A stretch of 64,000 nt of DNA from Microscilla marina ATCC 23134 (GTDB lineage: Bacteria; Bacteroidota; Bacteroidia; Cytophagales; Microscillaceae): positions 1 through 64,000 of the forward strand of contig NZ_AAWS01000026.1 of NCBI RefSeq assembly GCF_000169175.1, read 5' to 3'. The notes under the pieces were generated by a model, which ran no database searches, had not been told where the DNA came from, and worked only from the letters and a program-made list of their open reading frames with translations. Positions 18,038 through 19,323 of this stretch are shown piece after piece (positions within the stretch are counted from its first letter, which is position 1; each line of letters opens with the position of its first letter). Position numbers and translations under genes: made by a program.

Positions 18038-18076
18038 AAAAAAGGCGGACAGCTCATACCCATCTGTCCGCCTTAT
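18038..18076 (-). terminator. strong intrinsic terminator of the tRNA-like RNA locus
   Basis: Read on the minus strand, AAGGCGGACAG and CTGTCCGCCTT form an 11-bp GC-rich stem followed by seven T's. It sits directly at the end of the Leu-like 5' half, and its first bases overlap the CCTTATAAGG arm. It shows that the tRNA-like sequences are part of a defined minus-strand transcript. Confidence 0.9.
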
Positions 18077-18185
18077 AAGGTGCCTAATTTTAAGTCAGGT
18101 GCGTTTACCAATTTCGCCACTCGCCCAGGTAATACCTGCTTTATCAGTGATAAGCATTGTGGGCGAGGAGGGATTCGAACCACTC
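18071..18185 (-). tRNA. candidate circularly permuted tRNA-Leu(TAA)
   Basis: On the minus strand the 3' part comes first (18185-18160). It has a T-arm with loop TTCGAAT, then CTCGCCC and A as discriminator. After 33 nt (18159-18127) comes the 5' part (18126-18071): acceptor strand GGGCGAG, D-arm GGCGAAATTGGTAAACGC, a complete anticodon arm CCTGA-CTTAAAA-TTAGG with anticodon TAA, and a small variable arm CCT-TATA-AGG. GGGCGAG pairs perfectly with CTCGCCC over 7 bp. The gene is therefore split between the variable arm and T-arm, with its halves swapped. The 5' strand of the T-stem carries one extra T, which must bulge, and this could indicate decay. The minus strand is correct because the T-loop reads canonically only there. 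Confidence 0.5.
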
Positions 18186-18216
18186 AATACCGAAAATAAT
18201 ATTCATTGAACTTTCA

Positions 18217-18339
18217 CCACGGATTTTATAACTTATAACCGCTGCTCTACCTCTGAGCTACCCCGAATGATTGCTGAACTATTTTCGGTGATCTGAAAAC
18301 ATAGACTCGGGGAAAGGATTCGAACCTTTGTCCAACGGT
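18217..18339 (-). tRNA. candidate circularly permuted tRNA, identity unclear
   Basis: The 3' part (18339-18305) reads ACCGT, TGGAC, then a perfect T-arm AAAGG-TTCGAAT-CCTTT, then CCCCGAG. A 37-nt spacer (18304-18268) follows, then the 5' part from 18267: TTCGGGG, TA at positions 8-9, a perfect D-arm GCTC-AGAGGTA-GAGC, A26, and GCGGT. TTCGGGG pairs with CCCCGAG (six Watson-Crick pairs plus a terminal T-G), and GCGGT can pair with ACCGT across the split. The 5' part runs on into TATAAGTTATAAAATCCGTGG, where the usual 7-nt anticodon loop cannot be placed, so no anticodon is assigned. Perfect 10-bp inverted repeats (18189-18198 and 18280-18289) enclose the 5' part. Confidence 0.45.
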
Positions 18340-18540
18340 GTTCTATCTGCGAGAAGTTCTATAAATATTTTTTAAACTAAAACTATGAAGCTGTACACTG
18401 TAACTAATCGGCTACCAAACGGTGATTTCGCGTCGAGAGCACCAAACGGGTTGGGTGTTTGGTTGCGTCAACCTACGTCTTTGTGTTCAGTGCCTTATTA
18501 AACTAAAACTAAGACTGATACTAGGCTTCATAAGACCTTC

Positions 18541-19323
18541 TTACGGGTTTATAATATCTTTGTTTATAAACTCGAATAATTTTGTGGCAAGCTCGCTTTG
18601 CACCGCCTCTGCTTCATTGGCTTTGGAACGGGTGGTTTTCACGGCTTCCAGTACTGTATCTATGCGCTTCAACAGTTCTGCCTTGTCACGGGTAGATATT
18701 TTGGTACTGGTATATACAGTTTCGTACTTACCCACCTGAGCATCGGTGCTTGATTCGCGAATCTCGGCAGGAAAATGCTCTGTAGGGGGATGTATTACAA
18801 TATGTTTGGTGCGTTTTTCGGTTTTGTACTTGTGCTCAGGGTCAGTTTTTTTATACCCTCTACTTTTACCCTCATCATCTTTCCAGTCTTTAGTAGGGTC
18901 AAGCGTAGGAATGGCCTCATAAAAACGGCGTACCTTGGCAAGGTAGTTTTCCAGGGCAAGCAACGAAGTAGCACTTACATCGCCATAACTTTTGCCTTCT
19001 ATCATCAATTCGGCACGTGCCGCCCCTGACGAGTTGGTTTCTTCTTTGGTAAGCGTAGTATTGAGGTATTTGCATACAATATCCGACGCATAAGCCACAT
19101 TCTCAATAATTGTATAATTGATAATTTTATTATCAGTAGTCATTCGTTCGCCTTCACCTTCCAATGGAATCAATACCCTGGTGAGTCCGTCAAATCGGGT
19201 ATCGTTTTTAGTGAAGTTGGCAGTTTGCTCATTCAGAATTTTTTCAGACTGGGCCTTATTGGTTGCTTCTACGGCAAGTACTGCGTGGAGTTTGTTTTTG
19301 TTTTTTTTATTGTCTTTACTCAT
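18541..19323 (-). CDS. conserved protein of unknown function, 260 aa, upstream of the tRNA-like locus
   Basis: The protein is hydrophilic, cytoplasmic and has no signal peptide. The basic start (MSKDNKKNKNKLHAVLAVE) is followed by LIPLEGEGERMTTDNK, a central ELMIEGKSYGDVSATSLLALE, an EAIPTLDPTKDW segment, then IHPPTEHFPAEIRESSTD and a helical C-terminus (AELLKRIDTVLEAVKTTRSKANEAEAV). From memory, uncharacterised proteins of about 230-260 aa with this motif order also occur in actinobacteria; I could not check this. No catalytic motif is evident. The gene ends about 195 bp before the permuted tRNA-like units, on the same strand and with no obvious terminator between, so a functional link is plausible but inferred. 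Confidence 0.7.
   Translation of the reverse strand: MSKDNKKNKNKLHAVLAVEATNKAQSEKILNEQTANFTKNDTRFDGLTRVLIPLEGEGERMTTDNKIINYTIIENVAYASDIVCKYLNTTLTKEETNSSGAARAELMIEGKSYGDVSATSLLALENYLAKVRRFYEAIPTLDPTKDWKDDEGKSRGYKKTDPEHKYKTEKRTKHIVIHPPTEHFPAEIRESSTDAQVGKYETVYTSTKISTRDKAELLKRIDTVLEAVKTTRSKANEAEAVQSELATKLFEFINKDIINP

Follow-up and report, generated by a model that had tools for sequence, protein, structure and literature searches.

The bacterial Y RNA YrlA is described, in passages of PMC8394870, as a module on a basal stem with a protein partner and with mimicry of transfer RNA (tRNA). Circularly permuted tRNA genes of algae and archaea have the 3' half preceding the 5' half with a loop between the two, as outlined in parts of PMC3978253. 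Before it is processed, permuted two-piece transfer-messenger RNA (tmRNA) likewise has its acceptor strands in this order, with a loop that caps them (in part after PMC3978253). Here we describe a related arrangement in Microscilla marina ATCC 23134 (GCF_000169175.1; the own genome, G000), on positions 1-64,000 of contig NZ_AAWS01000026.1, which is the whole stretch analysed and is called the window below. On its minus strand a gene of the protein family DUF7873 is followed by two permuted tRNA-like units, a hairpin and a T-run. The locus RNA is predicted to be up to ~0.5 kb long, with predicted ends, and lies on the same strand directly downstream of the DUF7873 gene. An initial annotation of this DNA had noted two adjacent permuted units on the minus strand and had raised permuted elongator tRNAs as a reading. 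The two units and both 7-bp acceptor stems (GGGCGAG with CTCGCCC, and TTCGGGG with CCCCGAG including one terminal wobble) were borne out by reading the sequence, while the spacers, given as 33 and 37 nucleotides (nt), are 34 and 38 nt on recount. YrlA, the closest known RNA, had been overlooked.

Permuted units follow DUF7873 genes and co-occur with them

Our script counted a strict unit where the 900 nt downstream of a DUF7873 gene hold a T-arm, an acceptor stem with 7/7 pairs (G-U counted as a pair) and a D-arm. Such units were found in 56 of 80 named loci (kept out of 83 from a genome scan) and in 12 of 30 loci fetched from the order, where 27 of 148 genomes carry DUF7873; among phage records the count was 9 of 10, and among viral contigs 59 of 78 (80 fetched, two excluded for short flanks). 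Two or more units were present in 15 of the named loci, 3 of the order loci, 5 of the phage records and 23 of the viral contigs. The loci behind these counts are not independent, some being duplicated under two ids (e.g., L056 = L070) and others being close relatives. Adjacent intact tRNAs imitate the permuted pattern (L003, L010, and the tandem tRNA-Phe arrays L184 and L185) and were counted as false. As controls, 120 loci gave no strict unit on the reverse strand (0/120), none upstream on the same strand (0/115) and two upstream on the reverse strand (2/115), with about 0.2 loci expected from shuffles; the viral contigs gave 1/78 on the reverse strand and 0/77 upstream on the same strand. 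Since strict units follow DUF7873 and are rare upstream or on the other strand, the tRNA-like units are not debris. Going by record titles, with phyla as assigned by us, the unit-bearing loci include ones from Bacteroidota, Planctomycetes, Verrucomicrobia, cyanobacteria, Spirochaetales, Actinomadura and Myxococcota, and tandem permuted units occur in several cyanobacteria, actinomycetes, a Spirochaetales metagenome-assembled genome, myxobacteria and phages. Ten flanking proteins from seven loci had no family in common.

Acceptor pairing was followed in two data sets. In blind picks downstream of DUF7873 genes, for which the T-arm and the first D-arm were chosen without regard to the acceptor, the acceptors paired 7/7 (G-U allowed) in 82 of 148, compared with 0.52% for swapped partners; 63 picks had five or fewer pairs, so the blind choice was frequently wrong. 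In a 22-row Bacteroidota alignment, with rows pre-selected for paired acceptors, pairing holds in 99.4% of cells, 14 of the 16 pairs vary on both sides, and sliding the partner by 1-3 columns brings pairing to 34-50%. Because of this pre-selection the blind picks are the fairer test. The compensatory acceptor changes that the initial annotation had proposed to look for are present in both sets. Over all loci, 164 distinct strict units carry 135 distinct acceptor combinations. The second position of the capping loop is a C in 138 of the 164 (in the window, at 18304). This C stands at the place of C74 in CCA, and could mimic a CCA end or block RNase Z.

Aligned over 516 columns, the sister species departs from the window by 12 substitutions and one deletion, none of which lies in an acceptor, T, D or anticodon stem; one turns a G-C pair of the outer stem into G-U. 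Decayed tandem tRNA duplicates, also weighed in the initial annotation, would leave such a half order as two truncated neighbours, and neighbouring intact tRNAs can mimic the pattern in searches. We reject this origin, which has next to no chance against the covarying acceptors, the conservation across phyla, the co-occurrence given below and the lack of sister-species differences in the unit stems. Selection, which the initial annotation had favoured, is supported by the homologous loci across phyla, the acceptor covariation and the unchanged stems.

All 148 genomes of the order were searched with the RNA model R1, and a match of 69 bits or more was taken as strong. DUF7873 is present in 27 of these genomes. 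A strong RNA match was found in 24 of the 27 and in none of the 121 DUF7873-negative genomes (p 1e-24 by a Fisher test that includes related genomes); at 90 bits the numbers are 22 of 27 and 0 of 121. When the eight genomes that supplied training rows are left aside, 16 of 19 DUF7873-positive genomes have the RNA. The two top-scoring DUF7873-negative genomes owe their matches to the tandem tRNA-Phe arrays named above. In several genomes, e.g., G034, G049 and G089, the RNA is distant from the DUF7873 gene. The own genome has four copies above 100 bits (contigs C12, C26, C36 and C50), the next match scoring 47 bits, and a second DUF7873 gene (L036, G000:C54:2342-3073) with no strict unit within 900 nt downstream. 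We are confident that the RNA and DUF7873 belong together as a pair.

The Ro60 (TROVE) gene was followed in the same genomes, since a Y RNA of the ordinary YrlA kind, bound by Ro60 (Rsr), has the same permuted module. Rfam YrlA (RF02553) matched unit 1 at 34.9 bits (E 3.9e-5), and among 11 loci from other phyla YrlA scored 28-42 bits in five, with none listed at E 0.1 in the other six. TROVE occurs in 36 of the 148 genomes, the own genome included, and still correlates with the RNA within the order (p 9e-5). Against an ordinary Y RNA, the score stays under Rfam's gathering score (69), TROVE is missing from 10 of the 24 genomes with a strong RNA match, and the 20 genomes positive for TROVE and negative for DUF7873 have no strong RNA. 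The own genome moreover has a separate YrlA-like unit ~1.8 kb from its TROVE gene and on the same strand (L006 1501-1646; G000:C16:134851-134996, minus), which is likely a canonical Y RNA locus. We therefore regard an ordinary Y RNA as an unlikely account of the window RNA. Near the TROVE-linked unit of the own genome a possible second unit, with a 6/7 acceptor, was seen at L031 7374-7437. No description of the RNA was found in the literature searched; the main Y RNA papers fall outside its coverage and may count some copies as YrlA.

Layout and predicted fold of the window RNA

The features of the locus are collected in Table 1. The anticodon arm that belongs to the two halves of a full cloverleaf is present in unit 2 and absent from unit 1, where the outer stem stands in its place. 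ARAGORN reported 0 tRNAs over the window, and Rfam gave sub-threshold tRNA matches over both units.

Table 1. Features of the DUF7873 locus, listed 5' to 3' along the minus strand (MFE, minimum free energy)
Feature	Position	Strand	Evidence or remark
DUF7873 (PF25283) protein, 260 aa; presumed protein partner	18541..19323	-	Pfam E 2.8e-70
P1 stem, 5' strand TATGAAGC, 8 nt complementary to 18391-18384	18525..18532	-	
5'-domain strand with 6-nt period (AGYNTN-like: CTAGTATCAGTCTTAGTTTTAGTTTAAT)	18497..18524	-	read from sequence
P1 stem, 3' strand GCTTCATA	18384..18391	-	pairs with 18525..18532
Second 6-nt-period strand (TAGTTTTAGTTTAA)	18372..18385	-	read from sequence; recurs in alignment
Outer stem of unit 1, 5' strand GAACTT	18354..18359	-	MFE fold
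Unit 1 T-arm	18313..18329	-	sequence, alignment, MFE fold
Unit 1 acceptor, 3' strand CCCCGAG	18306..18312	-	sequence, alignment, MFE fold
Unit 1 acceptor-capping loop, 38 nt, begins TC	18268..18305	-	sequence
Unit 1 acceptor, 5' strand TTCGGGG, one terminal U-G pair	18261..18267	-	sequence, alignment, MFE fold
Unit 1 D-arm	18244..18258	-	sequence, alignment, MFE fold
Outer stem of unit 1, 3' strand AAGTTC	18208..18213	-	MFE fold
Unit 2 (Leu type) T-arm with bulged T	18168..18185	-	sequence; in MFE fold
Unit 2 acceptor, 3' strand CTCGCCC	18161..18167	-	sequence; pair probability 0.99; same in sister species
Unit 2 acceptor-capping loop, 34 nt	18127..18160	-	sequence
Unit 2 acceptor, 5' strand GGGCGAG	18120..18126	-	sequence, MFE fold
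Unit 2 D-arm	18101..18117	-	sequence and RF00005 alignment
Unit 2 anticodon arm, loop CTTAAAA (UAA); sister species loop CTTAAGA	18083..18099	-	sequence
Unit 2 variable arm CCTTATAAGG; shares its last two bases with the 3' hairpin	18071..18080	-	sequence
3' hairpin GGCGGACAG / loop ATGGGTATGAG / CTGTCCGCC; T-run 18043-18037 after it	18044..18072	-	

Permuted elongator tRNA genes, matured as in algae and archaea, would account for the half order, the acceptor pairing and the UAA anticodon arm of unit 2. Such genes are very improbable here, as unit 1 has no anticodon arm, the same module stands beside DUF7873 in other phyla within a larger RNA tied to that protein, and an intact tRNA-Leu(UAA) exists elsewhere in the own genome (G000:C4). 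The latter was found by a looser pattern; of the stricter ones, one matched only the window and one matched nothing. The initial annotation had set intact copies elsewhere, together with free drift at this locus, against its own reading: the intact copy exists for tRNA-Leu(UAA), but the unit stems are unchanged in the sister species.

Among the Bacteroidota-type copies, 42 of 49 distinct ones have a normal-order tRNA (ARAGORN) after the permuted unit, with many anticodons. The seven copies without it include those of the window and its sister species, whose Leu-type second unit is permuted instead, so that in one genus a Leu-type tRNA-like unit has turned permuted within a conserved RNA. To the 3' tRNA of L171, L172, L173, L174, L176 and L177 ARAGORN assigned an anticodon of four bases (ttcc, cgta, gcag), which means an enlarged anticodon loop. 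A permuted tRNA-like unit was also seen within a tRNA array of the own genome, with tRNA-Lys and tRNA-Trp on either side (L004 1501-1619; G000:C19:24578-24696).

The MFE fold of the window RNA forms both acceptor stems, both T-stems (that of unit 2 with a mean pair probability of 0.21), the D-stem of unit 1, the outer stem (6/6 pairs, mean pair probability 0.86) and the 3' hairpin (9/9 pairs). The initial annotation had read the end of the locus as a strong terminator. A hairpin with a T-run is indeed there, but hairpins with a GGNTA loop like this one were found in 50 of 77 loci that have a unit, with 2.0 expected from shuffles, and for this reason the terminal hairpin is more than a terminator. 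In Bacteroidota-type copies the P1 helix closes the 5' domain, which also carries the 6-nt-periodic strands. P1 has a mean pair probability of 0.38 in the window. An unguided test for it was weak (mean 6.38 vs 6.01 for swaps), whereas a test anchored on the AG motif in 34 copies, devised after the unguided outcome was known, gave 5.88 paired vs 4.40 for swapped partners (standard deviation 0.15). A pattern like the 6-nt periodicity of the 5' domain was recognised by eye downstream of DUF7873 in many other loci. The 6-nt repeats were also considered as a peptide tag, which was dropped on a by-eye reading of a few loci.

The presumed protein partner and the possible role of the pair

From 49 aligned sequences AlphaFold2 modelled DUF7873 with a pLDDT (predicted local distance difference test) of 92 and a predicted template modelling score of 0.80; modelling from a single sequence did poorly (pLDDT 49). 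A search of PDB sequences with the alignment profile gave no match. For three DUF7873 proteins NCBIfam and PHROGs returned weak rows only and PADLOC returned nothing, and DUF7873 was not mentioned in the literature searched. Weak rows for Cas7 and beta-lactamase folds were unconvincing and were set aside. One structure in BFVD, A0A7M1RW91 from the uncultured phage cr118_1, was matched by Foldseek with a probability of 0.97 and a template modelling score of 0.61 by target length, at 8% identity and E 0.17; it is possibly a remote structural relative of DUF7873.

The explanation we favour overall, and consider reasonably probable, is a tRNA-mimic RNA partnered by DUF7873, whose binding and function we infer. 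The RNA would be transcribed, and DUF7873 would bind it as a ribonucleoprotein (RNP). What the data show is its build, along with the covariation and the linkage and co-occurrence with DUF7873: P1 closes a 5' domain, after which come a permuted module like that of Y RNAs, another tRNA-like unit and a 3' hairpin whose loop reads GGNUA. We explain the permuted order by topology: the elbow and acceptor of a tRNA come to lie on the tip of a stem, as in YrlA (PMC8394870), and the acceptor end is capped. Such a capped mimic could hold, or compete for, a tRNA-binding protein while being neither charged nor used in translation. YrlA docks PNPase for Ro60, and by analogy the mimic might tether or sequester a tRNA-binding enzyme, a mechanism that we think the likeliest but put forward tentatively, at somewhat less than even chances. 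Carriage by many phages, in some of them inside tRNA arrays, would fit a role in tRNA or RNA turnover.

The phage records also bear on the main functional rival, by which the units would protect the phages as decoys that draw off tRNA-cleaving toxins or the anticodon nucleases of the host. DUF7873 is encoded in 73 of 50,697 phage records (where annotated, among the 60 matches listed, the product is called hypothetical protein) and in four records of a plasmid collection. It lies among annotated tRNAs in 4 of the 10 phages fetched, and the varied anticodons in the 3' tRNA of the Bacteroidota-type copies would suit decoys as well. The core modules, however, have no anticodon arm, many carriers are bacterial genomes, and half of the viral stretches are without a tRNA (calls in 40 of 80, some of them possibly part of the RNA itself). 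With the PADLOC result added, decoys appear rather unlikely to us, if less so than the other alternatives.

In a further alternative, RNase P and RNase Z would cut the capped loop to give a two-piece, CCA-ended and charged RNA, as in permuted tmRNA. The topology is that of permuted tmRNA, and the common C at loop position 2 is as in CCA. Loops as short as 5-7 nt speak against such cutting, the own genome has a one-piece tmRNA (C19:123015-123383), and the number of distinct acceptor combinations argues against a single synthetase. RF04321 was not listed at the locus up to E 10 in Rfam, where a tRNA-clan match could have hidden a tmRNA match, and RF00023 did not appear at the window contig among the 16 matches in the own genome. 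We find a two-piece RNA quite unlikely.

Several observations weigh against a DUF7873-partnered mimic. No strict unit was found nearby in 24 of the 80 named loci and 18 of the 30 loci of the order. Three DUF7873-positive genomes (G004, G008 and G090) have no strong RNA match, G090 having 48.8 bits beside DUF7873. The 69-bit line was fixed after the scores were seen, and the genomes in the Fisher tests are not independent, G001 and G052 being close to training genomes. The MFE fold contains neither P1 nor the D-, anticodon and variable arms of unit 2 (D-arm 0/3 and anticodon arm 0/5 pairs), and the whole window RNA is hardly more stable than its shuffles (z -1.52). Foldseek and VIA-align gave no confident fold match for DUF7873, so that its RNA binding stays putative. 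Tethering, finally, rests on the analogy with YrlA.

Comparison with YrlA, permuted tRNA genes and permuted tmRNA

The locus likely belongs to a new class of bacterial and phage RNP, spread over many phyla and independent of Ro60, in which DUF7873, a protein with no recognised fold relative, is joined to an RNA that has a 5' domain of 6-nt period, a single permuted tRNA mimic or two of them, and a hairpin with a GGNUA loop. If this is true, it would be a second, separate use of the permuted tRNA mimic, with another protein and in both bacteria and phages, bacterial Y RNAs being known for Ro60. The protein-RNA pair is open to testing in laboratory strains, which would offer a route to the function of DUF7873.

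The locus RNA shares with YrlA the permuted module of T-arm, acceptor and D-arm, as seen in the Rfam alignment, and the mimicry of tRNA; like YrlA it has a protein partner, here a presumed one. A putative basal stem under the module, GAACTT/AAGTTC, forms in the MFE fold of the window. The RNA differs from YrlA in that it tracks DUF7873, whereas YrlA goes with TROVE (Ro60/Rsr), and in that it is larger: a P1 domain lies on its 5' side, it often has two modules, and its 3' hairpin carries a GGNUA loop. With the permuted tRNA genes of algae and archaea it has in common the half order with an intervening loop, but its unit 1 is without an anticodon arm, and the units are embedded in a larger conserved RNA and found in bacteria and phages. 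The order of the acceptor strands and the capping loop are those of permuted tmRNA (RF04321), from which the acceptors of the window differ in having no G3-U70 pair.
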